A stretch of DNA of 62,194 nucleotides from Gemmataceae bacterium (lineage in GTDB: Bacteria > Planctomycetota > Planctomycetia > Gemmatales > Gemmataceae), in the NCBI GenBank assembly GCA_009692005.1, contig SHZZ01000016.1, positions 1 to 62,194 on the forward strand, given 5' to 3'. The position numbers and the translations under genes were made by a program. The notes under the pieces are model-generated. The model was not told the DNA's origin, searched no databases, and saw only the letters and a program-made list of their open reading frames with translations. Of the stretch, positions 9,696 to 52,985 are shown one piece after another. Position 1 is the stretch's first letter. The number at the start of each line of letters is the position of its first letter.

Positions 9696-9864
9696 CAACT
9701 GCCTGGGCATGTGTCTCCCAAAGTCCCCGCATGGTCTGGTTAACCCTTACCCTTGTTAGGGTTCCTCTATTTTCAAGACAATTCTCTGCGTAATCGTTTG
9801 CCATTGCCGGCCTCATTTGCCGATTATTCTCTGGATTCATTTCCCATGGATGGGAGGCTTTCTC

Positions 9865-10575
9865 GTGATCACGACTCTTGGCGCCCTGGTTACCCTTTCC
9901 GCTTTAGCCTTTGCAGAACCCAAGCTTATCAGCGTAGGCTATCTTTGGCACCAGAAATCGACCCCGGGTGGCCAGGAGGAAATCCAGGCTGTGCCCTATG
10001 TTCCCTGCGTGGGGGATGTGCTGTTGTTCGACGACATGAGTCGGTTTTGGACCTTTCTTTACAAAATAGCCGGGACCGCGCCCCCCTTTCATGCCGGCAT
10101 CGTCTTCAAAAAACCGGATGGCTCGTTAGCGGTGCTGGAATCGGGCCCCGACGACACCCTGCATGTTTTTCTTTTGGATATTCACCCGCGCTTGCATGAT
10201 TTCGAAGGCAGCATCCTGATCCGCCAAACCAAAAAAGTACTGAGCCAGGAAGAATCGAAAAAACTGACCGATTTCGCCGTGGCGCAGGACGGCAAGCGCT
10301 ATGCCATGTGGCGGCTGCTGCTGCAGGGAACGCCAGTGCGGCATCGCGGCGGAATAAAGGAAAAGATTTTGGCCACCACCTATGCCGACCGCTCTCGTTG
10401 GCTTTGCGCCGAGATCGTCGTGTCGGCGGGCACCCTGGTGGGCCTGTTCGATCCCGCCAAGGTGAAAGGGACAACCACCTACCCCTTGGACATGGTCGAT
10501 GATGTGCGCATAGACCTGTCGGCGACTTTTGAACCGCCTTACTACTGGAGTTCGCTTACCGCGCCCAAGCGTTAA
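9865..10575 (+). CDS. YiiX/YebB-like (permuted NlpC/P60-type papain fold) exported amidase or peptidase
   Basis: About 236 residues from a GTG at 9865, which has GGGAGG seven bases upstream and opens a signal peptide (ITTLGALVTLSALAFA). The same frame is also open from an ATG at 9850 or a TTG at 9817. The order of motifs is that of permuted papain-like enzymes: GDVLLFDD near residue 50, His76 in FHAGIVF, and Cys181 in WLCAEIVV. His before Cys is the permuted arrangement. Such enzymes cleave amide or ester bonds in peptidoglycan, peptides or lipids. The gene ends by overlapping the stop of the convergent beta-barrel gene by four bases. Confidence 0.78.
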   Translation: MITTLGALVTLSALAFAEPKLISVGYLWHQKSTPGGQEEIQAVPYVPCVGDVLLFDDMSRFWTFLYKIAGTAPPFHAGIVFKKPDGSLAVLESGPDDTLHVFLLDIHPRLHDFEGSILIRQTKKVLSQEESKKLTDFAVAQDGKRYAMWRLLLQGTPVRHRGGIKEKILATTYADRSRWLCAEIVVSAGTLVGLFDPAKVKGTTTYPLDMVDDVRIDLSATFEPPYYWSSLTAPKR

Positions 10576-18879: not shown

Positions 18880-21800
18880 ATGAACAAAAAACTCCTGCAT
18901 GTTGGACTTCCCGCCCTGGGGCTGCTGACAATCCTGGCAGCGGTTTTCCTCACCCGCGGGTCAGTTTTTGCCCAGGAAACCCGGGAGGGGTATCAAAAAC
19001 TTTACAACCAGGGGAATTACAAAGCCGCACTGGAGGGATATAAGAAGCTGGCCCTTGACGCCAAAACCAGCCCTGCCCAGGCCGGCAACGACATGAACAT
19101 GGCGCTCTACTGCCTGCGCAACCTCGGCCGCACCGATGAAGTCGATGATCTGCGCGACAGCGTGATCAAGGCGCATGCCGGCCAGTGGGAATTCATGCGC
19201 ATTGCCGCCAATTCTTTTTTGGAAGCGGAACACTTTGGCTACATCGTGGCGGGAAAGTATTACCGTGGGCACCACCGTGGAGGCGGCCGCATGGTCAGCA
19301 GTTATGCCCGCGACCGCCTGCGCGCCATCCAATTGATGGACGAAGGGCTGCAGAAAATAGACAAGGCTCCGAGCAAGAATGCCGCCGCCAGGTTCCTACT
19401 CGACTTTGCCGACTTGGTTTTGCGGGGCTCCGCCGGCCAGGAGGCCTGGCGCTTGCAAGTGCTTAGCGATTTCTCCCTTATTCCTGAATACGAAGACACG
19501 CCCTATTGGAATCCCTACCACGGGGTTTCCCCGGCGCCGGTGGACGAGAATGGCAACCCGGTTTTTCACAAGCTGCCTGCCTCTTATGAAAAAGCCGCCA
19601 CCGATGGCGAGCGCTGGCGCTGGCTGCTGCAGGAAGCACCCCGCCTCGAAGCCACGGTCAAGCAGGAAGCGAGCATGCGCTTCGCCTCTTTCCTGCATTC
19701 CCAGTTTGGCCCGCAAACTCTGGCCGGCTTCTTTCCCGGATTCATGGATGACACCAAGGCGGAAACCGGGGCCTACGCACTGGCCTCGCTAAAAGACGGC
19801 GAGACCATTGCCCGCATAGCCGCGGGTATCAAGCGCCTGAGCTTGCCCGAGGAGTTCAACTACCTTTCCCTTTGGAAGCAGGTGGCCGGGGAAGGGAAAA
19901 GCACGCCAGGAATGCAGGCGCGGGAGCTGATTGCCCATGAGTACGAGAACCGCAGGCAGCTTGAAAAAGCCGCCGAGGGATGGAAGAATGCCATAAAGGA
20001 ATACGGCGACAACGGCGGACATGGCCGGGGTTACCGCTTGCAACAAATCATCGGCAACTGGGGGAGATTTGAACCGGCGCCGGGGCAAACTCCCGACATC
20101 AACCCCACTTTGGATTTCCGTTTCCGCAACGCCAAGGAAGTGGAGTTCGAAGCCTTTGAAGTGCTGGTGGATAAACTCCTTACCGATGTGAAAAAGTATT
20201 TGCCTGGGCGGCAGGGGCAGCTTGATTGGCAGAAGTTGAACATCAGCGATGTGGGCCAACGGCTGGTTTACCAGAATGAAACGGCGTACATCGGCAAAAA
20301 GGCGGGGCAATGGAAGCAGAAATTAACTCCGCGCCCGGGGCATAACGATGCCCGCGTTCAGGTCGAGGTGCCCAAGCTTCCGGGCGGGGCTTACCTGGTT
20401 GTGGCCAAGCTGGAAGGCGGCAACACCAGCCGCGTGGTTTTGTGGATCAATGACCTGGCCATCGTGCGCAAGAACATTGATGGGCAGTCGTACTATTTCG
20501 TGGCCGATGCCATCAGCGGCGCGCCAGAAGCCGGGGCCAAGCTCGATTTCTTTGGCTGGAGGCAGGAACAGGTGCGCCCCAATCAGAACCAATATCGCGT
20601 CGTCCACAAGGAATTTGCCAAAACTCTGGACGCCGATGGGCAAACCTTGCTCGATAGCGCCACCGCGCCTGCCAACATGCAGTGGCTGGTGGTGGCCAAG
20701 GGAGCCAACAACCGCCAGGCCTATCTCGGATTCAGCCATTTCTGGTTTCAGAATTACCAGGACCACTATTTCCAGCAGGCCAAGGCCTTCGCCATCACCG
20801 ACCGTCCAGTCTACCGCCCGGGGCAAAAAGTCGAGTTCAAACTTTGGGCGGCACAGGCCCGCTACGATCTTGAAGGGCCAAGCCAATACGCGGGCAAGGA
20901 TCTTCATGTGGTGATTCGCAATCCCAAGGGGGACAAGGTCTATGAAAAAACCCTGCGCGCCGATGCTCACGGCGGCGTGGCAGGCAATTTCGACATCTCC
21001 AAGGACAGTACGCTCGGCGTGTATTATTTGGGAACGGAGAATGGCAACCCGGCTGGCGGCGTGCAGTTCCGCATTGAGGAATACAAAAAGCCCGAGTTTG
21101 AGGTCAAAGTCGAGGCGCCGGAAAAGCCCGTCATGCTGGGGGAGAAAGTTCCCGTAACTTTGTCGGCCAGGTATTATTTCGGCGCGCCGGTGGCCAAGGG
21201 CAAGGCCAAGATCAAAGTTCTGCGGCAATCCAAGACCACCGATTGGTATCCCCTGGGCGTGTGGGATTGGTTCTACGGCCGCGGGTACTGGTGGTTTGCC
21301 CCCGATTATCACTGGTACACCGGTTTTGAAAAGTGGGGCTGCATGCGCCCCTGGCCCTGGTGGTATCCGCGCGTGCAAGGGCCGCCCGAAATCGTACTCG
21401 AACAGGAATCTCCCATCGGGCCGGATGGAACCGTCAAGCTGGAGATCGACACCGGGCTGGCCAAGCAGTTTCATGGCAACCAGGACCATGAGTATTCCAT
21501 CACTGCCGAGGTGACCGATGAATCCCGGCGGGTTATCAGCGGGTCGGGCAAAGTCATCGTGGCGCGCAAGCCGTTCCGCGTTTTTACCTGGCTGGCCCGC
21601 GGGCATTACCGCACCGGCGATACGGTCGAGGTTTCCTTTCAGTCGCAAACCCCGGATGGCAAGCCGGTAGCGGGCATGGCCGAAGTGACTCTGTACCAGA
21701 TCACCTACGACAAGGAAGGCAAGCCGGTGGAAAAGGCTGTCGATCAGGTCAAGATGCCTGTGCGCGAGGAAGGCAAGGCGGCGCATAAGTTTGTTCCCCG

Positions 21801-24800
21801 CTTCCCGGGGCAATTTCGCGTTGCCATGATATTGACCGATGAAAAGGGCCGCGCCGAGGAAGGCGCTTACCTCTTCAATGTTTATGGCAAGGATTTCGAC
21901 ACCAAGAAACTGCGCTTCAACGATCTCGAACTTATTCTTGACAAGCGGGAGTTTGCGCCTGGGGAAACCGCCCAGTTGCTCATCAACACTAACCGGGAAA
22001 ATGGCACGGTCCTCCTCTTTTCCAAGCCGGTCAACGGCGTGGCCAAGGCGCCCAAGGTGATCCGCTTGCAGGGTAAATCGACCCAGCAAGGTTTAGTTCT
22101 CACACAGGCCGACATGCCCAACACTTTTGTCGAAGCCATAAGTGTTTCCAACGGCAAGCTGCACACCGAGATGAAGGAACTGATCATTCCGCCGGAAAAG
22201 CGCGTGCTCAATGTCCAGGTGGAAACCGACCAGGCCGAGTACAAGCCGGGGCAGAAGGCCAAGGTGAAGGTGAAAGTCACCGGTCTGGATGGCAAGCCGG
22301 TTTCAGGATCGGTGGTCCTTTCCGTTTACGACCGCAGCGTTGATTACATCGCTGGCGGATCCAATGTTCCCGACATCAAGGATTTCTTTTGGAAGTGGCG
22401 CAGGCGCCATTCCCCCAGCCAGGAGACTTCGCTTTCCAAAAACAGTTACAACCTGTTGAAGCAGAACGAAACGGGCATGGGCAATATCGGCATCTTCGGG
22501 GCCACAGCCGTGGAGGAATTTGCTGGCAATGGGATGGGTGGTCGGAGCGGCCAAACTCGGGAATCTTCTCGGCGTGACGGTGGTGGGCTAAGGGAAAATA
22601 TGGAGATGGACGCCTTGGGGCTGGGGGCGCCGGGGGGCTTTGGCGGCGGGTATGCCAACAACGCCTTTGAAGGCCGAGCCCTGATGAAATCCGCCATGGC
22701 CTCCGGGCCGGCCGGCGATAAATCCCCGGTGGGCCAGGAGGGCGGCCAGCCGGAAGGCGAAAATCCCATGCTCGTGCAACCCGGCATACGCAAGAATTTT
22801 GCCGACACCGCACTGTGGATCGCCTCGCTGGATGCCGGGCCCGATGGCACCGCCACCGCGGAACTCACCATGCCCGAAAACCTCACGGGCTGGAAGGTGC
22901 ACGCCTGGTCAATGGCCAACGGCACCCGGGTCGGCGATGGCGAAACCATCGTCACCACCAAGAAGGACCTCCTCGTACGCCTGCAGGCGCCACGGTTCTT
23001 CACTCAGAACGATGAAGTCATTCTTTCTGCCAATGTGCACAACTACCTCAAGGATGCCAAGACCGTCGAGGTTTCGCTGGAACTCGATGGCAATGTGCTG
23101 AAGGCCTTGTCGCCATTGACCGTGCGCGTGCCGATTTCTCCCAAGGATGAGAAGCGCGTCGATTGGAAAGTGAAAGTTGTTAACGAAGGGCAGGCTGTTG
23201 TGCGTGTGAAGGCGCTCACCGATGTGGAGTCGGACGCCATGGAGATGCGCTTCACCTCCTACATTCATGGCATGTTGCGGACGGAATCGTACTCTGGGGC
23301 CATCCGGCCCGGACAGACCGGCGCCAAGGTGCAGTTCACCGTGGGGGCCGAACGGCGAATCAACGACTCCAAACTGGAAATCCGCTACTCGCCCACCCTG
23401 GCTGGCGCCATGGTCGATGCTCTTCCCTACCTGGCTGACTACCCCTACGGCTGCACCGAGCAGACGCTCAACCGCTTCGTGCCAACTGTTATTACTTTGA
23501 GTCTTTTGGAACGGATGAAGATCGATCTGGCGGCGGTTCGCGACAAGCGGGCTAATTTGAACGCGCAGGAGATCGGCGACCCACAGGCCAGGGCCAAGGG
23601 GTGGAAACGCTTCCCAAGCAATCCTGTTTTCGACCCCAAGGAAGTGCGCGAGATGGCCGCCTCTGGGGTGAAAACCCTGCAGGGCATGCAAGTGTCCGAT
23701 GGCGGCTGGGGATGGTTCAGCGGCTATGGCGAATATTCTTCCCCGCACACCACCGCCGTGGTTGTTCATGGGTTGCAAATCGCCCGCGAGCACGGCATCC
23801 AGCTTCCTCCACAGATGCTGGAGCGCGGCATCGCCTGGCTCAAAGCCTACCAGCAAAGGCAGGTGGAGCTGATCAAGCGCGCCCCGGCCAAGGTTCTCCC
23901 TTACAAAGACCATGCCGACGACATGGATGCCTTTGCCTACATGATCCTTCTCGACGCCGATGTCGCCAACAACGATATGATGGAGTTCCTCTACCGCGAC
24001 CGCACCAAGATCAGCGTCTATGGCAAGGCCTTGTTCGGCATCGCCATGCACAAGCAGAAGCAGAATGATAAACTCCAGATGATTTTGAAAAACATCAGCC
24101 AATACCTGGTGCAGGACGAGGAGAACCAGACGGCGTATTTGAAGCTGCCACCGGAACATGCCTGGTGGTATTGGCATGGCAACGACACCGAGACCAACGC
24201 CTGGTATTTAAAACTTCTGGCCCGCACCGATCCCAAGGGCGAAACACCTTCTCGCCTGGCCAAGTACATCCTCAACAATCGCAAGCATGGCGCTTATTGG
24301 GACAGCACCCGCGCCACCGCTTTTTGCATCGAAGCTTTGGCCGAGTTCTTCAAGGCTTCCGGCGAAGACGCCCCGGACATGACTGTCGAGGTCTTGCTTG
24401 ACGGACGCAAGCTGAAAGAAGTGGCCATCAACGCCAGCAACCTTTTCACCTTCGATGGCACGGCGCTGGTCATGGGCGACGCGTTGGAATCGGGGGAACA
24501 CACCCTGGAACTGAAGAAAAAAGGGAAAGGTCCGCTTTACTTCAACGCTTATGTCAGCGTCTTCACTTTGGAAACGCCCATCAAGAAAGCCGGCCTCGAG
24601 GTCAAGGTTAACCGCAAGTATTACTTGTTGAAGAAGCAAGACACCACGGTCAAGGCGCCGGGCGCCCGCGGACAGGCGGTCAACCAGAAAGGCGAGAAGT
24701 ATGAACGCGTGGAGATTCCTGATCTGGGTGGAGTGAAGAGCGGCGACCTTGTCGAGATTGAGATGGAAATCGACAGCAAGAACGATTACGAGTACCTGCT

Positions 24801-25107
24801 GCTGGAAGACATGAAGGGGGCGGGGTTCGAGCCGGTGGAAATCCGCAGCGGTTATGGCAACAACGACATGCGCGCTTACATGGAACTGCGCGACGACCGC
24901 GTCAGCTTCTTCCTGCGCACTCTGGCGCGGGGGAAACATAGCCTTCGCTACCGGCTGCGGGCAGAGATCCCCGGCGTGTTTCATGCCCTGCCGGCAAAAA
25001 TGAATGGCATGTACGCCCCGGAGCTCAGGGCTAACTCGGATGAGATCCGCGTGCTGATTGAGGATGCCCCGGTGACCGTGCCGGGCGCCGCCACCGGGTC
25101 GAACTGA
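18880..25107 (+). CDS. Bacterial alpha-2-macroglobulin (MG domains, thioester intact)
   Basis: A 2075-residue exported protein with a signal peptide (MNKKLLHVGLPALGLLTIL, then cleavage near SVFAQ). Residues of about 35-330 are helical, with a tetratricopeptide-like start (YQKLYNQGNYKAALEGYKKL). From about 480 onward come macroglobulin beta-sandwiches: AFAITDRPVYRPGQKVEFK is the MG2 signature. The A2M domain begins near residue 1305 (TALWIASLDAGPDGTA, then TGWKVHAWSMANG). The thioester motif CTEQ is at 1525-1528 in YPYGCTEQTLNRF, followed by the alpha/alpha thioester barrel (SDGGWGWFSGYGEYSSPH). Such proteins trap attacking proteases and bind them covalently. No penicillin-binding protein partner lies nearby. 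A Gly/Arg-rich insert at about 1213-1273 is a candidate bait region. Confidence 0.93.
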   Translation: MNKKLLHVGLPALGLLTILAAVFLTRGSVFAQETREGYQKLYNQGNYKAALEGYKKLALDAKTSPAQAGNDMNMALYCLRNLGRTDEVDDLRDSVIKAHAGQWEFMRIAANSFLEAEHFGYIVAGKYYRGHHRGGGRMVSSYARDRLRAIQLMDEGLQKIDKAPSKNAAARFLLDFADLVLRGSAGQEAWRLQVLSDFSLIPEYEDTPYWNPYHGVSPAPVDENGNPVFHKLPASYEKAATDGERWRWLLQEAPRLEATVKQEASMRFASFLHSQFGPQTLAGFFPGFMDDTKAETGAYALASLKDGETIARIAAGIKRLSLPEEFNYLSLWKQVAGEGKSTPGMQARELIAHEYENRRQLEKAAEGWKNAIKEYGDNGGHGRGYRLQQIIGNWGRFEPAPGQTPDINPTLDFRFRNAKEVEFEAFEVLVDKLLTDVKKYLPGRQGQLDWQKLNISDVGQRLVYQNETAYIGKKAGQWKQKLTPRPGHNDARVQVEVPKLPGGAYLVVAKLEGGNTSRVVLWINDLAIVRKNIDGQSYYFVADAISGAPEAGAKLDFFGWRQEQVRPNQNQYRVVHKEFAKTLDADGQTLLDSATAPANMQWLVVAKGANNRQAYLGFSHFWFQNYQDHYFQQAKAFAITDRPVYRPGQKVEFKLWAAQARYDLEGPSQYAGKDLHVVIRNPKGDKVYEKTLRADAHGGVAGNFDISKDSTLGVYYLGTENGNPAGGVQFRIEEYKKPEFEVKVEAPEKPVMLGEKVPVTLSARYYFGAPVAKGKAKIKVLRQSKTTDWYPLGVWDWFYGRGYWWFAPDYHWYTGFEKWGCMRPWPWWYPRVQGPPEIVLEQESPIGPDGTVKLEIDTGLAKQFHGNQDHEYSITAEVTDESRRVISGSGKVIVARKPFRVFTWLARGHYRTGDTVEVSFQSQTPDGKPVAGMAEVTLYQITYDKEGKPVEKAVDQVKMPVREEGKAAHKFVPRFPGQFRVAMILTDEKGRAEEGAYLFNVYGKDFDTKKLRFNDLELILDKREFAPGETAQLLINTNRENGTVLLFSKPVNGVAKAPKVIRLQGKSTQQGLVLTQADMPNTFVEAISVSNGKLHTEMKELIIPPEKRVLNVQVETDQAEYKPGQKAKVKVKVTGLDGKPVSGSVVLSVYDRSVDYIAGGSNVPDIKDFFWKWRRRHSPSQETSLSKNSYNLLKQNETGMGNIGIFGATAVEEFAGNGMGGRSGQTRESSRRDGGGLRENMEMDALGLGAPGGFGGGYANNAFEGRALMKSAMASGPAGDKSPVGQEGGQPEGENPMLVQPGIRKNFADTALWIASLDAGPDGTATAELTMPENLTGWKVHAWSMANGTRVGDGETIVTTKKDLLVRLQAPRFFTQNDEVILSANVHNYLKDAKTVEVSLELDGNVLKALSPLTVRVPISPKDEKRVDWKVKVVNEGQAVVRVKALTDVESDAMEMRFTSYIHGMLRTESYSGAIRPGQTGAKVQFTVGAERRINDSKLEIRYSPTLAGAMVDALPYLADYPYGCTEQTLNRFVPTVITLSLLERMKIDLAAVRDKRANLNAQEIGDPQARAKGWKRFPSNPVFDPKEVREMAASGVKTLQGMQVSDGGWGWFSGYGEYSSPHTTAVVVHGLQIAREHGIQLPPQMLERGIAWLKAYQQRQVELIKRAPAKVLPYKDHADDMDAFAYMILLDADVANNDMMEFLYRDRTKISVYGKALFGIAMHKQKQNDKLQMILKNISQYLVQDEENQTAYLKLPPEHAWWYWHGNDTETNAWYLKLLARTDPKGETPSRLAKYILNNRKHGAYWDSTRATAFCIEALAEFFKASGEDAPDMTVEVLLDGRKLKEVAINASNLFTFDGTALVMGDALESGEHTLELKKKGKGPLYFNAYVSVFTLETPIKKAGLEVKVNRKYYLLKKQDTTVKAPGARGQAVNQKGEKYERVEIPDLGGVKSGDLVEIEMEIDSKNDYEYLLLEDMKGAGFEPVEIRSGYGNNDMRAYMELRDDRVSFFLRTLARGKHSLRYRLRAEIPGVFHALPAKMNGMYAPELRANSDEIRVLIEDAPVTVPGAATGSN

Positions 25108-41517: not shown

Positions 41518-44500
41518 CTAAACATTTCGCGTGTTGCGGCGGGGCCGTTTGGGTTTTTCCCTCGCCACCTGACTCCCACCGTGGGCTTGCGAAAGCAAAC
41601 TGGGCGCTAGCAAGGCAGCAATTGCCAGGCCGGCGGCCTGGAGCATTTCGCTTTTCCTTTCAACGCCAACCAGGATCTCGGGGAAACGGTCCTGATCAGA
41701 AATGGCTTGATGGCGAGCCAGCCCCAGGGAGAATTCACCCATCTGAGTGTCCCAATTGGCTGTGAAATGCGTGAAATCGCCCAAACTGAGGTCAAACAAA
41801 TCCTCCGGGAGATTTGAAACAACTTCATCTCCGTTGGCAGGAAGTTGGGCGGCTGGTAGCAGGTTGTCCGGGAGCTGAGCCCCCGGGCCTCCTTGCTTTT
41901 CAACTTGAGGAAAAGCCTTGAGCCTGGCTTGCACGAGGTCCGCCAGAATTCCACCCGCGTTCTTAAAGGCTTTGGCCCCTTCTTCCAGCGCAACCTTGCC
42001 GGTGGAATCTACCAGGGAATCCAGGCTGGTTTCAAATTCGCTGGGTACAAAAATAGAAATGGCCCGGTCAACATTCCTGGAAACTTCTTGCAGCAGGTGT
42101 TCCTGTGCGGTCAGGGTGGTTTCGACCACTGCCACCGACAATTCACCTGATTGCAGCAAGGAATTTACGACGAGTTTTGCTGTGGAAATCAGGGGATTGA
42201 CGGAAAGGGCGGATTGGGCCTCCACCTTGCCAGGTTCCAGAGACATGCCGGTTTCATCGGTGATTGCCAGCTTTTGCAGGTCCATTTCCAAGGCTAGGTC
42301 GTCAATTCCTTGGGTTGCCACGCCACCCCCAGCGACAAGGCTGCCGAAAAATTCTTGCGCCAAGGCCGTAGCGGAAAGATTGAAGCCGGTGGTTCCAACC
42401 TGGGAAATGGCGTTCAACAAAGATGAAGAAAAACTTGCTCCGATTCCCTGGGAACCGGAATTGCTTCCCGTGGTTGAGTCGATAGGTCCCGATTGGCCGT
42501 TGTTGCCTACAGGTCCAGGGCTGCCTCCGGGTGTGGAACCAGAAGATTTCGAGCCAAAATCGAGTACTAGGGACAGGCCAGATTTGGGGACATCGGCGGC
42601 GGCAAAGCCCGACACTGCCTGCCCCCCCTGGGTGACGGTTGGATTGATCACCTGGCCATTGGCGGTGACCAAAGCCGCCCCGGCCAGCACCTGACCGGCC
42701 CCAACCCCGGTTAATTGCAGGTTGTACTGTGTGGCCTGCGCCGCGGGGATGACGACCAAGTCGAGGGCGCCCTTGGAAGAAAGACTGGCGGATTTGTTTT
42801 CCAGAATCTGGTTTCCCTGGCTGTTGCCCACCTGCCCGGTTGGGGTGTTCAAGACGAAATCGACCGGGTCGAGCCAGAGCAGGAGGTAATCCTGGTCGAG
42901 TTTCCCGCTGCCGGTTGGATCCTGGCTGGCGATCCAGAAATTCACCAGTTCCTCGGTTATCTTGCTGCTGGCAAGATTGATTGAATCCGCAGCGGAGAGG
43001 TTGGTGGCAACCGAACTGAAGGAGCCGATCAATTCGTTGGAAAGATTATCCAACTGGGTCTGGTCAACTGGGCGGGTGAAACTTTCGGACGAAATGGCGG
43101 GAGACAGAGTGAAGGAATAATCGGTGGACAAGGACAAATCGCCTGGGGCTGTTAAAAGAATGTGGAATTCATCTCCCGAGGAGACCTTAAAGGAAAGGGT
43201 TGGCGAAGTTGCCGAACTGCTGGCCAACTGGATGCTTTCACCGTCCTGGGTGAGAAACACTTTTACCCCGGTCTTCCCGCCTGCGGGGCCGGAAAAACCG
43301 CCCAGGGAAATGGTGGTGTCCTCAAAGGCAACCCCCTTGAAGGCATCGACATCCCCGGCGTGGGAAAAGCTGCCGGTTACTTCCGTACTCTTGGTTCCAA
43401 GGACCAAGGAAGTGGCGGCCGAGGCGGTGTTGCCGTGGTCGTCCGCAGCAGCGCTTGGGTCATGCAGAACTTCCATGCGGTAGGTCCCGACTCCCCCGCC
43501 ATACGACGCGGCGGTCAATAAATAAGTTTCCCCCGCGGTCAAGTCGATGCTGATAAAGCTGTGGGAAACATTGGGGCTGGCATCGTCATTGCTGGCCAGA
43601 ATATTTCCGGCCATATCTTTAACGGTCAGTTGCGTGTCGAGAGGATTCACCGGGCCGGTTCCAAAAAGGCGGATGCGGTAGTTTCCGGAAACCTCCGGAG
43701 CCAGCTTGAACAGATCCTCGTCGCCACAGGCTTCAATCTCGCCCTCCTGGCTGTCCTGGTTGCCCGCCAAAGCAATTCTCCCGGGTGTGGAGCCAAAATC
43801 ATCCACGACCGGTTCAACCTGCAACTCGAAGGCGCCCGTGGTTTGCGATGCCCCTTGGACTTCAAAATAGTAAGACTTTCCTGCTTCCAGGCAGCGGAAG
43901 AGCAAACTGTCGGAAGCCCCCAGGGAGGCATCGCCAGTTTGATTATTGCTGTAAGCGAGCAGGCTGCCGCTGGAATCATAGAGGGATAAATAAGCATCCA
44001 GATTCGACCCGGATTCAGCGGCGAGCGATACCTTCACAATCTCGGTGGTGACCGGGACAAATTCGAAAAAGTCACTCTCGCCCGCGGATTGAATCTCCCC
44101 CAGGGTCGTGGCAAAATTCCCGCTGTTGGCCAGAAGGCTGGCCGATTGCCGGGTATTCCCATGGTCGTCGGTATCGAGCCTGGCCCAAACCTTGTAATCA
44201 CCCACGGAGGAACCCACTCCGGCGGTTTGCAGGTAAATCACCTCCCCGGCGTTGACGGGCAAAGCCACCAAGCTGTTGAAGCCCGACCCAAAGTTGTCAT
44301 CCTCGACCACCAGATTTTCCAAGCTGTTTTGGTAAATTCGCAAGTAGCCATCCAGCTTGCTGGTGGCAGCGGCATTCAATCCGAGATTGAGAATGCCGGC
44401 GGTGGTGATTTCCAGTTTGAATAAATCGCGATCGCCAACGGCATTGATCGTGCCGAGGGAATTGGCCTGGTTGGCCGAATCGAGAACCAGGACATGGCTG

Positions 44501-47500
44501 GCCGGGATAGCGCCCGTGTTGTTGCCGGCCCCATCGGCATCTTGGTGAACAATCGGCTTTAGGGAAAGCTCGTAATTTCCCAAGCTGCCGCCAAAACCGG
44601 AGGCGGCAAGGTAATAGGTGGATCCCTTGGCCGTTTCAAAGATCAAACGGCTGTCACTGCTTTTGCCAAAATTATCATTGGATCCCACCACAGCGCCCTG
44701 GGAATTGAGCGCCGCCAGCACCGTGTCGAGTTTGCTCCCCGCAGCCGCTTTCAAATCCACTTGCACCTGGCCATTCTCAGCCGCCAGGAATTGAAACAGA
44801 TCAACATCCTTGGAAACGGAAATCTTTCCAAGGCTGGCGGCCGCACTGATCGTTCCAAAAGGCAGCTTGGAGGTGGAATTAATTGCATTGGCGAAATCGT
44901 CTGGCGGCGCCTGTTGAACAATTTGGTTTACTTCTAACCGGTAATTCCCCTGCGATTTTCCGCCGCCTTGCAGTTGAATGTAATAAGTTTCTCCAGCGGC
45001 CAGGTTGACCCGGGACAGGGCGGGCTTTCCTCCCGGTTGCTGAACACTGCTGGCCAGAACACTTAAATCCTCCTTGATGATTTTGAAAACTGGGGAGAAG
45101 TCTTTTGCATCTGGCCCAGGGGTTGCTGCGAAGTTGAATATCCCCGCTGCCGGTGAAGTTATCCGGAAAATATCGCTATCGAAAGTTTCCACTCGGTTGG
45201 AGATTTCTCCCTGGCTGCTGGCCGAGGAACCGTCGGTGAAATTCAATCCCGTGGCGAATTTAACACTGTCGCCATGATCGTCTTCCTGGACTTCTTCCGT
45301 AATGGAAAACTGGTAGGCTTGGTTTTCCCCCTGGCGGGTGGAATCAGAAAATTGAATGTAGTACTCTCCCCCTTTTTCCGCCTTCAGAGTCAACCGGCTG
45401 TTCACTCCCGGCCCGGAATCATCATCGGAGAAAAGCAGGTTGCCCTTGGCATCCAAAACCCCAAGTTTCGGGTCGAGAGTGGAATCGCTGGCTGCCAGGT
45501 TGAGCGTGAACACACCGGACTTGGTGGCGGTATAACGGCGCAGGTCCATATCCCCCGCGAAATTCACCGTCCCCTTGAAGATTCCTGGTTCCAAATTGGC
45601 GAGAGCGATTGCCGGCGCCTTTTCGCCAAAGTCGGACACTCGGTCGGGAAGATCATCGCTTAATGCCTGGTAACTCAAGGCGTATTCCCCGGCGCTGCCC
45701 CCGGCGCCAGCGGCCCAGAGGAGAACCGACTTGCTTTCTCCCGGCCCCACCTTGACCTCTTGCTGCGAATTCAGACTGCCTGGCTCGTCCCCTGCCAGGG
45801 TCCAGGTGGCCCCGCCATCGCTGGAAAAATAAAGTAGGGAATCCAGCCGCGACTGGTTTTGGTTGATGGCTTTATGGTTAAATCGCAGCCGGGTCATTTC
45901 CGTGGTTGAACTGTTCACATAATTCAGGCTGAAGAGGTCCGCGTCTCCTGCAAGATTTACCATGCCTTGGAGCTGGGTCCCTGAAAGAGCTGTAGCCGCC
46001 GACTTGCTTTGGCTGGAATAATCATCCAGCCCCGCGTTTAAAGCATAGCTGCCGACATAGGCCCCTCCACCCACTTGCACATGGTAAACTTGCCCTGAAG
46101 TTAATTCGACATTCACCATTCCCTGGTAGCCTTTGGGGCCAAAACTGCTTTCCGCCTGGGAAACCAGGGGCGCCATGTTTTGGTCTAAAATCCGGATTCC
46201 TGGCATTGCGCCGCTTTGCCGGTCTGATGCCTGGAAGGCAAACAGCCCACTGGCCGGAGCAGTGAACTTGAATGTGTCCAGGGTTTGCGCGTTTAAGGCC
46301 CCGGTTGCTTTAGCCTGCTGATTGCTAAACACCAGCAACGCTTCAATGCTGTTGCTAATGCGGTATTCACTTGCCGCCTGGCTGCTTACCGAAATGTAAT
46401 AAGCTTTTCCCGCTTCCACTGGGAATTGGCTGCCCTCGGTGGTGGCTTCCAGTTTGATGGGGGTCCCGTTGGCGTTTAAAACCGCCAGGCGTCCCGTTTC
46501 CAGGATGCTCCCCGTCAGGCCCAAAGTCGCCACACCCGACTGGCGGGCGCTGAATTTGAAGAAATCTTCGTCTCCCGCCTTTTCGATTTTTCCCCTTTGC
46601 TGGAAAGCGCCGGTGGCATCCAAAACCAGGGGGCTGGCTTGGTTGAGGTCGTTCCCGAAATCATCTTCGATTCTCTGGCCTTCCTCCATTTCCACAAGGA
46701 AGTTGCCGCTTTGGGTCTTCAGAGTGGAAACCTTAATGAAATACTCCTGGTCTTGCTCTGTGTTGAAGCGGACGATTGAGGCCGTCCCGCCTCCGGAGTT
46801 GTCATCGGAAATAATGGGCTCAAAATGGCCTGCGGTGGTTTCCACAAATGCCGACAAATAAGGATCGAAATTGCTTTCCTTCGCGGAGGCACGAAGGACC
46901 ATGCTGCCCGAGTTGCCGGCCTTGACTTTGAAAAACTCATCATCCTTTGGCCCATCGGATTGGCCAACCGCGCTTTTTCCCAGGCTTAAGGCGCTGGAAA
47001 ATGACCAGGTGGCGTCTGCCCGAATGGTGGTGGCGGCAATCGCCTGGCTCAAATTCCCCCCCAGATCACTGAGGATTTTTGAAGGCAAGGAAATCGAAAA
47101 GGCCCCTTCTTTGGCAGCTTCCACCGTGAGTTCAAGCAACTTGGGGTTTACCGCCCGGATCGCACTCAGGGTGACCGGTCCGGTGGCTTTGAAGTCGGCC
47201 AACGAAGGCAAACCCGCCATCGCTTCATCCCATTCCACATAAACAAGCCTTTCTTTCCCCAACGGGACGGTCAGCGTGGGAATCCCCGGGAAAGTGCCTG
47301 GGGTCAAGAACTTTCCTTTAGGATTTTGGGTATCGACGGTGACCGGGGTTTCCCCAGCAGCACTGGTGTTCCCGGCGGCATCCGTAGCTTTGGCGCTGAA
47401 GGAGTACGACCCGTCGGCAAGGGTTGCGCTGGTGTAATCAAAAGTCCACGAACCGCTAGTGTCCGCCTTAACTCCGCCGATTGATTGCCCACCCCGGAAC

Positions 47501-49101
47501 AGACTTACCTTGGATTCAGGTTCGGCGGAGCCGCTCAAAACCAGGGTGGTATCGCTGGTGATTCGGTCGGAAGCGGAGGCGCCGGAGTCTTCAGAAATGC
47601 CGGTAAACTCCGGTGCCTTGGGTTCAGCAGTGTCGATATCGACGGAGTCGCCAGCACCGCTGCCGATGTTGCCGACCATGTCGGAGTAGAGTCCGCTGAG
47701 GTTGACTGAACCCTTGTTGGCAATCCCATCCGTGGCGGTGAAGGTGGCGCTGTAGCTGTCGGCATCAATGATTGTGAAGTTGGACAGAGTTCCCCCCGCC
47801 GTGGTCAGGTCAGAGGCGTCAAAGCCGACGACTGCTTCGCTGAATTCGAATTTGACCGGGGAGGACGGGGCGCCATTGCTCAGGGAGGCGGCGACAATGT
47901 CGACTGTGGCGGCGGGGTTCTTGGTGTCAATGGTGACACTAAAGGATGCAAACGCAGACTCAGCTTGGCTATTTAATTTTGCATTGGCAGTGAAGAAATG
48001 GGTTCCCTCGCCTAATGTTGTGCTGGTGTAATCGAAGGTCCAGTTTCCATTGGCGTCAGGTGTGACTGAAGGACCAAGAGTTGTAGATTGTTGAAAAAGT
48101 GAGACAAGGGCGCCTGGCTCGGAAGTTCCATTAAAAACCAAATTCGTATCGTTGGTGGTGCGGTCGGAAATGGATAAACCCGAATCGTTGGAAATAGCGA
48201 GATTGGATGGGGCCAGGATATAAGTAATGGTGGCAAGGCCGTTTCCAGAATTAGTGGCATAGTTGGAAGCAAAGCCGAACTGGCCAGGAGAGAAATTGGA
48301 TCCAGCGTAGCCACCATTACCGTAATATTCATTATTAGAAAAACTGAGAGAACCGCCGAAACCTCCGCCGGTTGAAGACGAACCTTGGGAAATGGCTAAT
48401 CCCCCGCCGCCCCCGCCACCATCAGCATACACAGGCACATTACTACCAGCCTGCCCGGTGGTGGAACTTGTGAAAAATTGGTATGTGGAACCTGGGGTTC
48501 CTTGAGGAGGGTTTCCTGCTCCGCCGCCCCCGCCCGCGCCGGCCGCTACCAGGTAAGAAATTCCTTGCGAATTGCTAAATGAAAGCAGTGACGCGGCTCC
48601 GCCGCCGCCGCCGCCGCCGGAGGCGCCGCTACTACCTGTATCGCCACCCTTTCCCCCGGAGAATCCGCTGGGGAAATCGGAAGAGGCAAATGGTGACCTG
48701 CCGCCGGCTCCCCCTCCCGAGGCGGTCTCGTTGTTGCCGCCATGGCCGCCGACCTCACCAATGTAAAAGGTCAAAGTTTCGCCGGGATTGACAAACAGGT
48801 TGCCGGAGATTTTGCCTGCCGGGCCGGCTGCCCCGCCGCTTGTTTGATAATCGATACCGCCTTGCCCCGCTCCGCCCCCCAGCATGGAAATGGAGATTTT
48901 CCCCGCCCCATCGGGAACCACCCAGGATTCAGCGGCGTTGATGAATGAAAAGGTTTTGGTGGTGGGAGTCAGCCTCGGTTCGAGATTCTCGATGGCCAAG
49001 ATTGGTGGCTTAGATTTTTTTGGAGTTGCCTTTCGGCGAAAAAGTAAGTCCCTGGTATCAAATAAAACCCTGAACCACTTCCGTGACTTTTGCGGGTTCA
49101 T
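41518..49101 (-). CDS. Giant surface protein: LEPR leader, glycine-rich domain, Ig-like and PPC repeats
   Basis: A 2527-residue protein. The basic N-terminus leads to IENLEPRLTP (LEPR at 40-43), the leader motif of planctomycete giant exported proteins. Residues of about 55-295 are a glycine-rich domain (GGGGGGGAASLLSFS, GAGGGGGAGN). Ig-like units follow at about 298-392, 396-490 and 494-592; the first and third share a NWTFDYTS/SWTFDYTS core. About eleven PPC-like beta-sandwich repeats fill roughly 705-2000, most opening with DDHGN or DDFG and containing D.DLF. The last ~500 residues are unlike them, and the very C-terminus is a hydrophobic helix (AAGLAIAALLAPSLL) followed by a basic tail (KPKRPRRNTRNV). 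This looks like a cell-surface or matrix adhesin. The gaps on both sides (41221-41517 and 49102-49391) hold no gene I can support. Confidence 0.88.
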   Translation of the reverse strand: MNPQKSRKWFRVLFDTRDLLFRRKATPKKSKPPILAIENLEPRLTPTTKTFSFINAAESWVVPDGAGKISISMLGGGAGQGGIDYQTSGGAAGPAGKISGNLFVNPGETLTFYIGEVGGHGGNNETASGGGAGGRSPFASSDFPSGFSGGKGGDTGSSGASGGGGGGGAASLLSFSNSQGISYLVAAGAGGGGGAGNPPQGTPGSTYQFFTSSTTGQAGSNVPVYADGGGGGGGLAISQGSSSTGGGFGGSLSFSNNEYYGNGGYAGSNFSPGQFGFASNYATNSGNGLATITYILAPSNLAISNDSGLSISDRTTNDTNLVFNGTSEPGALVSLFQQSTTLGPSVTPDANGNWTFDYTSTTLGEGTHFFTANAKLNSQAESAFASFSVTIDTKNPAATVDIVAASLSNGAPSSPVKFEFSEAVVGFDASDLTTAGGTLSNFTIIDADSYSATFTATDGIANKGSVNLSGLYSDMVGNIGSGAGDSVDIDTAEPKAPEFTGISEDSGASASDRITSDTTLVLSGSAEPESKVSLFRGGQSIGGVKADTSGSWTFDYTSATLADGSYSFSAKATDAAGNTSAAGETPVTVDTQNPKGKFLTPGTFPGIPTLTVPLGKERLVYVEWDEAMAGLPSLADFKATGPVTLSAIRAVNPKLLELTVEAAKEGAFSISLPSKILSDLGGNLSQAIAATTIRADATWSFSSALSLGKSAVGQSDGPKDDEFFKVKAGNSGSMVLRASAKESNFDPYLSAFVETTAGHFEPIISDDNSGGGTASIVRFNTEQDQEYFIKVSTLKTQSGNFLVEMEEGQRIEDDFGNDLNQASPLVLDATGAFQQRGKIEKAGDEDFFKFSARQSGVATLGLTGSILETGRLAVLNANGTPIKLEATTEGSQFPVEAGKAYYISVSSQAASEYRISNSIEALLVFSNQQAKATGALNAQTLDTFKFTAPASGLFAFQASDRQSGAMPGIRILDQNMAPLVSQAESSFGPKGYQGMVNVELTSGQVYHVQVGGGAYVGSYALNAGLDDYSSQSKSAATALSGTQLQGMVNLAGDADLFSLNYVNSSTTEMTRLRFNHKAINQNQSRLDSLLYFSSDGGATWTLAGDEPGSLNSQQEVKVGPGESKSVLLWAAGAGGSAGEYALSYQALSDDLPDRVSDFGEKAPAIALANLEPGIFKGTVNFAGDMDLRRYTATKSGVFTLNLAASDSTLDPKLGVLDAKGNLLFSDDDSGPGVNSRLTLKAEKGGEYYIQFSDSTRQGENQAYQFSITEEVQEDDHGDSVKFATGLNFTDGSSASSQGEISNRVETFDSDIFRITSPAAGIFNFAATPGPDAKDFSPVFKIIKEDLSVLASSVQQPGGKPALSRVNLAAGETYYIQLQGGGKSQGNYRLEVNQIVQQAPPDDFANAINSTSKLPFGTISAAASLGKISVSKDVDLFQFLAAENGQVQVDLKAAAGSKLDTVLAALNSQGAVVGSNDNFGKSSDSRLIFETAKGSTYYLAASGFGGSLGNYELSLKPIVHQDADGAGNNTGAIPASHVLVLDSANQANSLGTINAVGDRDLFKLEITTAGILNLGLNAAATSKLDGYLRIYQNSLENLVVEDDNFGSGFNSLVALPVNAGEVIYLQTAGVGSSVGDYKVWARLDTDDHGNTRQSASLLANSGNFATTLGEIQSAGESDFFEFVPVTTEIVKVSLAAESGSNLDAYLSLYDSSGSLLAYSNNQTGDASLGASDSLLFRCLEAGKSYYFEVQGASQTTGAFELQVEPVVDDFGSTPGRIALAGNQDSQEGEIEACGDEDLFKLAPEVSGNYRIRLFGTGPVNPLDTQLTVKDMAGNILASNDDASPNVSHSFISIDLTAGETYLLTAASYGGGVGTYRMEVLHDPSAAADDHGNTASAATSLVLGTKSTEVTGSFSHAGDVDAFKGVAFEDTTISLGGFSGPAGGKTGVKVFLTQDGESIQLASSSATSPTLSFKVSSGDEFHILLTAPGDLSLSTDYSFTLSPAISSESFTRPVDQTQLDNLSNELIGSFSSVATNLSAADSINLASSKITEELVNFWIASQDPTGSGKLDQDYLLLWLDPVDFVLNTPTGQVGNSQGNQILENKSASLSSKGALDLVVIPAAQATQYNLQLTGVGAGQVLAGAALVTANGQVINPTVTQGGQAVSGFAAADVPKSGLSLVLDFGSKSSGSTPGGSPGPVGNNGQSGPIDSTTGSNSGSQGIGASFSSSLLNAISQVGTTGFNLSATALAQEFFGSLVAGGGVATQGIDDLALEMDLQKLAITDETGMSLEPGKVEAQSALSVNPLISTAKLVVNSLLQSGELSVAVVETTLTAQEHLLQEVSRNVDRAISIFVPSEFETSLDSLVDSTGKVALEEGAKAFKNAGGILADLVQARLKAFPQVEKQGGPGAQLPDNLLPAAQLPANGDEVVSNLPEDLFDLSLGDFTHFTANWDTQMGEFSLGLARHQAISDQDRFPEILVGVERKSEMLQAAGLAIAALLAPSLLSQAHGGSQVAREKPKRPRRNTRNV

Positions 49102-49391: not shown

Positions 49392-52300
49392 CTATTTCGC
49401 CAGCCAGCGGGCTTTTTGTTGGGCATAATCCTGCCCTTTTCGCAGGGAATCAAAGGAGTCATCGGTTTCGATGGCCTGGAGCCAAATGGCCATTCGTTGG
49501 GTTGGGGGGCTGAGATCCCAGGCTTTATCCAAGAAGTCGAAGGAATTCTTTCTGTAAGAAAGTAATAGTTGCGCGCTTTCCGGAGTGCTTTCCTGGCGCA
49601 GGGCTATTTTCCCGTGTACCACCGAATATATCCCCGCCACATTGAGGTAAAGAGGAAGGCTGGGCTGGGCTTCTTTGAGCGCCGCCTGGGCATCCCCGAC
49701 TGCGCCAGCCAGATCATTTTGCGTGGCCCGGATATAGCCCCGCACCTGGTAAGCTTGCGATTTTTCCAAAGGATCCACATCTGCCGATTCCAGAATGCGG
49801 GAAATATCGGCCTCGACCAATTTTTTCCACGCCGAGTTTAACAGCATGGCCCGCCGGTTTCTGGCTTTCATATCAGATGGGAGGAGTTCCACGCCCCGGC
49901 TCAAATCCGCCAGGGCCGGCCCCAATTGGTTCAAGCCGCGCAAGGCATTGCCCCGGCCAAGGTAAGCCCTGGGGTCGAGTCCTCCATCCTTTTTCGGATT
50001 GTGCAAGGCGAAATATTTATTAAACGCGCTAACGGCCTCGGCATATTTATTCTGTTCCACCAGCACCAACCCCGTCATGAGCTGGGCCCCGGGCGAGGCA
50101 GGGTCCAGATTGACCGCAAGAGCGCTTAACTCCAGCGCCTTGTCCAGTTGTCCTTGAGAATAAAGCAGATCCACGGCCAGGAGGTAAGCGGCGGCCTTGT
50201 CCTTGGGCTGGATGCGCCAATTCCCTTCGGCAATAAAATCGGCCAGTGCTTTTGCTTTTTCCGGCGGGGTCAGGTCGAGAAACGCCAGGCCGCGCCAATG
50301 GAAAAACTCGCCCTCGTTGGGGTTGGCACGAATGCATTTATTAAAAAGTTCAATCGCCTCGAGATTTTTTCTCTCTTTTCTGAACACCAGGGCCAGGTTG
50401 GCCATGGGGCGGGTGTCCGAAGGATTCAGGGTCATGGCTTTTTCGAAATCTGCCTTGGCAAGATCCAGGTGGCCGAGGTCAAAATAGGCAACCCCGCGGT
50501 TTACTAGAATGTGAAATTCCGGCACGCCCAAATCCCGCGCTTTGGAAAAATCGGCCAGGGCTTCCTGCAACACTTGGGGCCCGGCGCCGGGCTTTTTCCC
50601 CACGGTCTTGACATCGGCGATGCCCCGCAGCAAGTAACTGAAACCAAGATCAGGTTTTACCCCGATGCAGGCGTTCATCACCGGGCCTACTTTTTCCCAT
50701 TCATCGGCCTTGGCATTGCAGACGGCGACAAAGAAATTGGACCAGAATAAGCCGGGGTCGATTCTTTGACTGCGGGTAAAGAATTCCAAAGCGCTGGCAA
50801 GGTCATTTTGTCCAAGGGCCCGCTGCCCCAAGAGGAAAAACTCCCACCCGCTGGCAGGTTCAATCCCCTTGGCCAGCGCCAATTCCTTGGCGGCTTCCTC
50901 GCCCCGGCCGAGATTCAGCAGCACATCGGCAACCGTGAGGTGGAACACATGGCTCCCCTGCGACAGGCCTTTGCCTTTTTCCAAAAGGGCCAGGGCGGTG
51001 TTATTGCCCTCTTTGAAATCGGCATTACTAGTCCCAGGCAAACGCAAGGTCATTTGCCGGGCGATCAGGATTACCAGTTCGAAGGCTTCTTGGGCCAGCT
51101 TCACTTTTTCCTTGCTCGACAAATAATCCGGTAGGCGCAGGGAAAAGGAAGTGTCTTTTTGCCAATCGATCCCGACCTTTTCCAAGGCATTGGCGGCGTG
51201 AAGGACGCTTTGTTCTTTGCTTTGGGCGGCATTGCCCAGGACATCGGCGGATTGAAACAGGGCTTCGTCGTATTGCCCGGCGAAATCCAACATGTTTTGG
51301 TTTGCCTGGATCCTTTTTTCGGCCTGGCTCAGCAGTTCAGCAGCGGGGGTTTTGATTTCATCCAGGTTGATTTCGTTTTTCAATTCTGCCAGCAGCTTGT
51401 TCAATTGCTCTTTGGCGGGGGCAAATTTCTTTTCTTCAAAAAGGGTCTGCGCTTTCAACAGTTCCGGTTGCGTCGATTTTCTCAAGGCTGCCAGGCGGTT
51501 GTCTTCGCGATTCGAGCGGACAATGTACCCGGCCATACCCAAGATCAAAGTGATAAAAAAGGCCGCCGAGACGGCAATCAGGGCCGATTTGGTCCGGTTG
51601 CGTTTGGCCCACTTCACGGTTTTGGTGAATAAAGAAACGGGCCGGGCCAGGATCGGCTCTCCCTTGATATAGCGGATCAATTCGTCCGCCAGCTCCCCTG
51701 CCGTGGCATACCTTTTTGCAGGATCCTTCTCCAGGCATTTCAAACTGATGGTTTGCAAATCGATTGGGGTATTGGGCTGGAGGGTGCTGGGGGCAACGGG
51801 TTCCAGGGTCAGCACTTGTTTCAGCGTGTCGAGGTAGTTGGCATCCTTGAAAGGAGGTCGCCCGGTCAGGCATTCATAAAGGATGGCGCCGAGGGAATAA
51901 ATGTCCGCCGCCGGGCCGATTTCCTTGATGCGCCCTTCGGCCTGTTCTGGGGGCATGTAAGAAGGGGTGCCCATGATCGAGCCGTCTTGAGTCTGGCCAT
52001 CGTCGCTGTCCATTTTTTTGGCCAGGCCGAAGTCGGTGATTTTGGGATCCCCTTCCTTGGTCAGAAGCACATTGGCGGGTTTCAAATCGCGGTGAAGGAT
52101 CTGGTTTTGGTGGGCGTAGTCCATGGCCTGGGCAAGCTGGCTGAGGATTTTGGCAGTCCACATGGGGGATTGGGGGGTGCCATCGATTTTCCTGTCCATC
52201 GGCCCGCCATCGACGAATTCCAGGGAGAAAAAAGGCGCGCCATTGAATTCGCTGACTTCATAAACCTGGACAATGGCCGGGTGTTTCAAGGCGGCCACCG

Positions 52301-52985
52301 CCTGGGCTTCCAGTTTAAAACGGTCGATGATTTCCGGCGGGACATTGGCGCCGCCGAATATCATTTTCAAGGCCACTACTCGGCCAAGGCCCCGCTGCTT
52401 GGCCCGGTAGACAACACCCATGCCTCCACGGCCCAGCTCTCCGTAAATTTCGTACCCGGGAACCTGCGGATATTTTTTCCCCCCCGGATTTGCTTGGGTT
52501 TCTTTGGCCACCCCTGCCTGCGTGGGGCCAGACTGTTTTTTCCCTAGCTGAAAAGTTTTGTTCAACGCCTCGTCTGTAATCAGGTGACCCAATCCTGGCG
52601 CCACCGTGGCCCCATCGCCTATCGGTTGGGGGTCCTGAATTCCCGAGAATTTCCCCAACGACGGGGGAACAGTGGCCATATTAGGATCGAAACCGGGAGG
52701 CTCCATAGCGGTAACGGGCGGCTGTTTCTTTTGGCCCAGGCCGGAAGCGCCAGGCATAACAGTTGCCTGGTTGGGGTCGTAACCTAAAGAGGCATCGCTG
52801 ATGGGACTGGTTGGACAAATGGTTTCGCCAAAGCCGGCGGCGACTTTGTCCAACTCTTCCTGCATGGCGGCGGAGATCGACTCACCCCCGCGATTGACTG
52901 GCGCCTTATTCTCTTCGCGGCTTGTTGGGGATTCTTGATTCGGTACCGTGGAACTTGGGTTGGGTTCTTGAGGTTTATTTTCCAT
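49392..52985 (-). CDS. Membrane Ser/Thr protein kinase with C-terminal TPR domain
   Basis: A 1197-residue protein. After a disordered N-terminus of about 175 residues, the kinase domain (about 180-455) has GELGRGGMGVVYRAK, Lys207, Glu226, HRDLKPANVLL with Asp300, DFGLAKK with Asp318, and MGTPSYMPPEQAEG in the activation segment. Everything needed for catalysis is present. A single membrane helix lies near 470-490 (SAAFFITLILGMAGYIV), so the kinase is cytoplasmic and the C-terminal ~700 residues are outside. These are tetratricopeptide-like (GHLDLAKADFEKAMTLNPSD, KNLEAIELFNKCIRANPNEG). This is the standard planctomycete receptor-kinase plan. The gene lies upstream of the giant surface-protein gene on the same strand, 290 bases away. 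Confidence 0.93.
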   Translation of the reverse strand: MENKPQEPNPSSTVPNQESPTSREENKAPVNRGGESISAAMQEELDKVAAGFGETICPTSPISDASLGYDPNQATVMPGASGLGQKKQPPVTAMEPPGFDPNMATVPPSLGKFSGIQDPQPIGDGATVAPGLGHLITDEALNKTFQLGKKQSGPTQAGVAKETQANPGGKKYPQVPGYEIYGELGRGGMGVVYRAKQRGLGRVVALKMIFGGANVPPEIIDRFKLEAQAVAALKHPAIVQVYEVSEFNGAPFFSLEFVDGGPMDRKIDGTPQSPMWTAKILSQLAQAMDYAHQNQILHRDLKPANVLLTKEGDPKITDFGLAKKMDSDDGQTQDGSIMGTPSYMPPEQAEGRIKEIGPAADIYSLGAILYECLTGRPPFKDANYLDTLKQVLTLEPVAPSTLQPNTPIDLQTISLKCLEKDPAKRYATAGELADELIRYIKGEPILARPVSLFTKTVKWAKRNRTKSALIAVSAAFFITLILGMAGYIVRSNREDNRLAALRKSTQPELLKAQTLFEEKKFAPAKEQLNKLLAELKNEINLDEIKTPAAELLSQAEKRIQANQNMLDFAGQYDEALFQSADVLGNAAQSKEQSVLHAANALEKVGIDWQKDTSFSLRLPDYLSSKEKVKLAQEAFELVILIARQMTLRLPGTSNADFKEGNNTALALLEKGKGLSQGSHVFHLTVADVLLNLGRGEEAAKELALAKGIEPASGWEFFLLGQRALGQNDLASALEFFTRSQRIDPGLFWSNFFVAVCNAKADEWEKVGPVMNACIGVKPDLGFSYLLRGIADVKTVGKKPGAGPQVLQEALADFSKARDLGVPEFHILVNRGVAYFDLGHLDLAKADFEKAMTLNPSDTRPMANLALVFRKERKNLEAIELFNKCIRANPNEGEFFHWRGLAFLDLTPPEKAKALADFIAEGNWRIQPKDKAAAYLLAVDLLYSQGQLDKALELSALAVNLDPASPGAQLMTGLVLVEQNKYAEAVSAFNKYFALHNPKKDGGLDPRAYLGRGNALRGLNQLGPALADLSRGVELLPSDMKARNRRAMLLNSAWKKLVEADISRILESADVDPLEKSQAYQVRGYIRATQNDLAGAVGDAQAALKEAQPSLPLYLNVAGIYSVVHGKIALRQESTPESAQLLLSYRKNSFDFLDKAWDLSPPTQRMAIWLQAIETDDSFDSLRKGQDYAQQKARWLAK

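Follow-up and report, generated by a model that had tools for sequence, protein, structure and literature searches.

The giant gene and its leader

Within the window, the whole stretch of 62,194 nucleotides that was analysed (genome G000), a minus-strand ORF with an ATG start encodes a giant surface-type protein, and the next gene upstream encodes a kinase. The two genes and the parts of the giant are arranged as follows:

49392..52985, minus strand: Ser/Thr kinase, 1197 aa, immediately upstream of the giant gene with 290 bp between the two
41518..49101, minus strand: giant LEPR-leader protein, 2527 aa (ORF and Pfam)
48964..49101, minus strand: leader, residues 1-46 (RKWFRVLF ... IENLEPRLTP), basic, without a hydrophobic core
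48217..48960, minus strand: glycine-rich head, about residues 48-295 (direct reading of the sequence)
47317..48216, minus strand: Ig-like units Big_13, Big_12 and Big_13, about residues 296-595 (Pfam)
43153..47010, minus strand: eleven PPC-like units, residues 698-1983 (profile iterated on the giant itself)
41926..42195, minus strand: conserved block (VPSEFE) of the family C-terminal region, residues 2303-2392
41590..41646, minus strand: hydrophobic helix MLQAAGLAIAALLAPSLLS, residues 2486-2504, KD19 1.73, presumed transmembrane anchor
41521..41589, minus strand: basic tail, residues 2505-2527, net charge +6, presumed cytoplasmic

A first-pass annotation had described this succession of leader, glycine-rich domain, Ig-like units, about eleven PPC-like repeats, helix and basic tail, and the architecture is confirmed by Pfam, profile searches and hydropathy. 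Pfam matches over cut-off comprise Big_13 (two stretches), Big_12 and one PPC (PF04151); the count of eleven PPC-like units comes from the self-iterated profile, includes one partial unit (1026-1069) and leaves out a further partial match that is in the profile (2106-2169) and weak matches at 166-187 and 2263-2320. The PPC array and the helix are separated by some 500 residues of C-terminal sequence that is specific to the family. The giant resembles PPC, Ig and FG-GAP repeat surface proteins in its repeat stalk and variable head, but differs from them in the shared leader form, the anchor-like end and the adjoining kinase gene. Elsewhere in the window (18880-25107, plus strand) a bacterial alpha-2-macroglobulin of 2075 aa is encoded, with bait-region and TED domain matches.

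The same annotation had assigned the N-terminus to the planctomycete LEPR leaders, which stands for a looser LExRxxP form and not for the curated family. The giant is like LEPR-8K proteins (NF012209) in having a basic N-terminal leader with LExR near residue 40, but its LTP form escapes the curated model, which gives no match at E≤1 in G000 and none when NCBIfam models are searched against the N-terminal 100 aa of the giant; the term LEPR leader is therefore used here for the looser class, to which the giant belongs by its N-terminal motif. Nineteen-residue stretches starting at residues 1-45 peak at KD 0.43, hence no ordinary signal-peptide core is visible. The LExRxxP pattern occurs at 30 places in G000, compared with 15 for a reversed-pattern control, and 16 of these (the window and 15 others) read as leaders at ORF starts, a count that leaves out two loci with an N-terminal LExRxxP and an ordinary signal peptide (L084, L090). 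The sixteen leader ORFs, among loci L076-L102, have a basic, often aromatic N-terminus in addition to the motif.

Conservation and distribution of the C-terminal tail

The C-terminal region of the giant is present in six of the 102 genomes of the order, and homologues were found in six of the 397 genomes and two of the 185 genera sampled from the class. Together these genomes supply ten homologous C-termini (two each in G000, G019, G106 and G110, one each in G108 and G111), the two of G000 being the window giant and a remnant on contig C22. A scan of an 84,980-species collection with one peptide pattern returned five loci, whose contigs appear to be those of five of the ten C-termini. All ten retain the L, A, P and L of an LxAPxxL core within a helix of KD19 1.39-1.98, followed by a basic end of 18-23 residues, and the net charge changes from -2 to -4 over the 20 residues before the helix to +4 to +8 after it. 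Four positions are invariant in residues 2483-2512, and one in the 90 residues before the helix region (2393-2482). Across the 44 codons of the tail, dN (0.03-0.10) is below dS (0.06-0.32) in each of nine close pairs. With the exception of the C22 remnant, the family members carry Ser/Thr at the end of the tail (…RRNTRNV, …KKRNS, …KKRKS, …RKQKS). The conservation among homologues that the first-pass annotation had made a check of its proposal is thus present, and as judged from these sequences the view of the tail as a conserved, uncatalogued C-terminal anchor-like segment is supported.

That proposal, an undescribed anchor signal for planctomycete giant proteins, went further, and in its general form it did not hold. 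A tail-only profile applied to the 102 genomes recovered the ten family places at E≤6.3e-20, followed by a gap up to 0.026, and no match outside the family fell below E 0.02. Some match at E≤10 exists in 97 of the genomes, and 24 ORF loci among the weak matches listed (L032-L055, E 0.026 upward) had no such C-terminal anchor by eye; G000 itself gave six matches at E≤10, and among its matches listed (E<1.5) there were just two, both family members. We then scored complete LEPR proteins by a combination of KD ≥1.39 and net charge ≥+2, values set after the family had been seen. None of 27 other complete LEPR proteins reaches both (0/9 from the same genome, 0/18 from other planctomycetes), so the tail is rejected as a general LEPR anchor and the motif expected across LEPR-leader proteins is not shared; by sequence it appears confined to one protein family. 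The window giant is the sole protein with such a tail among the ten complete LEPR proteins read in G000, where nine of the 15 other leader places have a readable C-terminus and six run off contigs. The other planctomycetes were represented by 20 stretches yielding the 18 complete proteins, with L131 running off its contig and further partial ORFs dropped; L143, of which the C-terminal part alone is available, has no such tail. Near misses among the 27 are L109, L113, L130, L134 and L142, with KD ≥1.39 but net charge of -1 to +1, and three of these (L109, L113 and L134) pass if the charge limit is relaxed to ≥+1. The 27 include three proteins with a kinase neighbour (L130, L134 and L140) and none downstream of the TPR-type kinase described below.

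In outline, a C-terminal hydrophobic helix and then basic residues, the giant is like the PEP-CTERM/exosortase (TIGR02595, PF09721), GlyGly-CTERM/rhombosortase and LPXTG/sortase A signals. It had been noted that no known recognition tripeptide precedes the helix, and we agree: NCBIfam models gave no match to the last 161 aa (limit E 10, with filters that drop most matches above 0.1), the sequence holds no PEP motif before the helix, and no GlyGly-CTERM or LPXTG signature was seen there. Co-occurrence with an exosortase, sortase or rhombosortase had also been suggested as a check, and no such enzyme over cut-off was found to pair with the tail. Exosortase is present in 49 of the 59 genomes searched; G000 (none at E≤0.01) and G019 are without it, and this absence is not specific, because eight further genomes that are not known carriers also lack it. 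Across the two carrier genera (G000, G019, G106-G111) none of the eight genomes has an exosortase over cut-off, G109 giving one match below it (E 0.17). Sortase was found in none of the 59 genomes, G000 and G019 included, by a search that gives a match in three of 14 control genomes. No rhombosortase exceeds the 84-bit cut-off in the eight carrier-genus genomes (best 45 bits), with weaker rhomboid-like matches below it in all eight as in 14 of the 14 controls. The known sorting systems were ruled out for the tail by the absent NCBIfam match and the lack of a cognate enzyme over cut-off in the genomes searched.

An upstream TPR-type kinase gene

The kinase encoded upstream of the giant has a kinase domain at residues 178-428 with HRD and DFG present, one TM helix at about 468-486 and a TPR region at about 490-1197, and thereby fits a planctomycete TPR receptor kinase, a type defined by a Pkinase domain with its catalytic motifs, a single TM and a TPR region at the C-terminus. 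The same order of parts is given for planctomycete transmembrane Ser/Thr kinases with periplasmic TPR in the available portion of a paper that predicts the kinase inside, one TM and the TPR mostly outside, and calls the TPR function mostly unknown (PMC11032199); from the kinases described there the window type differs in its pairing with a LEPR surface protein. Residues 69 to about 130, before the kinase domain, contain DPNxATxxP-like motifs, possibly phosphothreonine sites, which are more numerous in the g20 kinases than in the window kinase.

A profile built from the TPR regions of three such kinases, with no more than 11 candidates scored in any genome, found matches at E≤1e-60 in ten of the 102 genomes of the order; seven of them score ≥1270 bits and the other three 214-218 bits. 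The high-scoring seven comprise the six genomes that carry the giant's C-terminal region, together with G109 (73% complete), in which a giant follows the kinase and is interrupted by a frame break and by the end of the contig. Each g20 genome with a match has one such kinase at this threshold. A LEPR protein is the next same-strand gene after the TPR kinase in all ten loci, and as related sequences are not independent this pairing represents five genera and not ten events. Seven are close pairs (window, L009, L115, L156-L159), and a like leader is present in the seven close pairs, the window counted, in which the N-terminus of the giant is visible. The other three are distant loci chosen by their kinase before the neighbours were known, with LEPR partners of 907 aa (G081), 1736 aa (G018) and 2269 aa (G015). 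Gaps between kinase and partner measure 41-462 bp in the ten pairs and contain no ORF over 93 aa.

The C-terminus of the partner is readable in six of the ten pairs, those of G106, G108, G109 and G111 running off contigs, and each of the six terminates in a Pro-containing hydrophobic helix (KD19 1.39-1.98) and a tail of net charge +1 to +6. At KD ≥1.39 and net ≥+2 five of the six pass, versus 0/27 other LEPR proteins, and at net ≥+1 all six do, versus 3/27; the G081 partner has net +1 only. Helices are weaker in the three distant partners (KD 1.39-1.47; LCLAPAAML, LLWLVPWTSTF and LILLPTLQAML), whose tails have net +1 to +4 and whose ectodomains match SdrD_B or FG-GAP repeats in Pfam, with one PPC match below cut-off in G015. 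Heads vary even among close relatives, from Gly-rich/Ig in the window to DUF4347 in g20 type B and Big_12 in the type-A-like protein of G108.

A comparison of a handful of proteins flanking the window locus and the g20 kinase locus revealed none in common. In the intergenic DNA between kinase and giant we saw no conserved element in common with the window copy; there is no promoter-like site, and two terminator-like sites lie on the opposite strand (1.4 expected). Searched against plasmids, the kinase TPR domain gave no match, and in the titles and abstract starts listed from the open-licence literature we found no description of the giant's tail or of the pairing of a LEPR protein with a TPR kinase. 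Near the window giant lies a DUF1501 gene with 35% identity over 217 aa to a gene next to the G019 type-A giant.

Contig C22 of G000 carries, at about 9071-10532 (L010), a fused remnant of a second kinase-giant pair, in which kinase residues ~99-186 are joined to giant residues from 2140 on; its flank is of g20 type, with a similar gene downstream. The remnant is a deletion or a misassembly, with pieces of both genes together either way. For the type A giants, the second giants of g20, the contigs of G019, G106 and G110 begin inside the gene and the upstream side is unseen. The giant behind the kinase in G108 shows, up to the end of its contig, repeats like those of type A, and therefore type A may also adjoin this kinase. 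Also in G108, the giant at L116 (contig C55) is most like type A (77% to that of G019) in a type-B locus flank, a location that suggests module exchange between paralogues.

When LEPR genes were picked regardless of kinases, 6 of 34 loci had a Ser/Thr kinase neighbour versus ~0.6 expected, a rough estimate over mixed orientations with the downstream side visible at part of the loci. The six are L134 (G011:C1167), L168 (G023:C258), L177 (G046), L167, L191 and L196. Kinase-adjacent LEPR genes without the tail occur in G046 (L177/L140, with a 362-aa kinase without TPR match) and, in divergent orientation, at L130. At L134 the LEPR protein has a TM-like C-terminus and the kinase ORF starts 19 bp downstream. 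A baseline of 400 kb from one other genome contained 3 kinases in ~321 ORFs, 0 followed by a LEPR protein; it gives the kinase frequency but is a weak pairing control because the stretch is without any LEPR candidate.

A candidate receptor and kinase pair

We consider it probable (about 0.6) that the giant and the upstream kinase form a two-gene surface module in which the giant is permanently membrane-anchored and the TPR domain reads its state. The LExR leader would take the ectodomain across the inner membrane, by a presumed route since no Sec-type core is visible, and present outside a Gly-rich/Ig head on an eleven-unit PPC stalk. The C-terminal helix would stop in the membrane as a permanent anchor, uncut by any known sorting enzyme, with the basic tail in the cytoplasm; the positive-inside charge is the reason for placing the tail inside and the stalk outside, and the predicted membrane-spanning topology draws on hydropathy and charge, which fit. 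The upstream gene would supply a single-pass kinase with its kinase domain inside and its TPR solenoid outside, where the TPR domain would sense what state the anchored giant is in, be it tension, ligand or assembly, and switch the kinase. This topology, the export, the physical contact and the direction of the signal are what we infer for the pair. The TPR domain may bind the giant, or the kinase may act on the tail, and the Ser/Thr found at the tail's end in nine family members may be a kinase target.

It is also possible, although we would put it forward tentatively, that the giant is no more than an adhesin with a transmembrane anchor and that its kinase neighbour regulates other things, or the giant's expression, with no physical signalling between the two. 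A helix plus a basic end is an ordinary stop-transfer anchor, and the gap of 290 bp in the window (352-462 bp in the six g20 pairs) permits separate transcription; the pairing is, however, kept in five genera despite differing ectodomains, which is more than a chance neighbour would give. That the hydrophobic segment is instead buried in a soluble C-terminal domain, without ever entering the membrane, is quite unlikely. Its moderate hydrophobicity and internal proline would allow this, and AlphaFold models of the 528 and 228 C-terminal residues, with pLDDT 34 and 33, are too poor to speak against it, but no other 19-residue stretch of the 2527-aa window protein exceeds KD 1.6, the segment lies at its very end (two relatives have one or two extra stretches just above this value, 1.65-1.68), the shift from net negative to basic across it recurs in 10/10 homologues, and similar tails occur on proteins with unrelated ectodomains.

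An undescribed sorting signal, in which an unknown processing enzyme cuts the tail, with release of the giant or its attachment to the envelope, seems to us unlikely. The helix does contain helix-breaking Pro/Gly, rhomboid-like sequences are present below the rhombosortase cut-off, and the known tripartite signals look similar in the available portions of their descriptions (PMC1569441, PMC3237569). According to the same portions, however, PEP-CTERM has many occurrences per genome (PMC1569441), and likeness among GlyGly-CTERM proteins is usually limited to that region, with 0-5 residues following the helix (PMC3237569) as compared with 18-23 in the ten members of the giant's family. Both signals, as so described, recur on otherwise unrelated proteins whereas the tail was found in one family, which argues against a sorting signal, as does the want of an exosortase, sortase or rhombosortase over cut-off where these were searched. 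The evidence suggests a surface receptor system of two genes, not a new sorting signal, and the stable gene pair makes a general sorting role of the tail unlikely.

Our reading of the giant and its kinase as one surface module could, more speculatively, be extended to a modular receptor design in which interchangeable LEPR ectodomains (PPC/Ig, DUF4347, SdrD_B, FG-GAP) are joined to a Pro-bearing anchor and basic tail and served by a dedicated upstream TPR-sensing kinase, an extension that we hold to be possible but doubtful. Planctomycetes have many membrane kinases with periplasmic TPR, going by the portion of the survey available (PMC11032199), and many large LEPR proteins without assigned partners. 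If the modular reading is true, orphan periplasmic TPR domains would have ligands, and the stable kinase-LEPR gene pair offers a concrete, testable ligand-receptor hypothesis.
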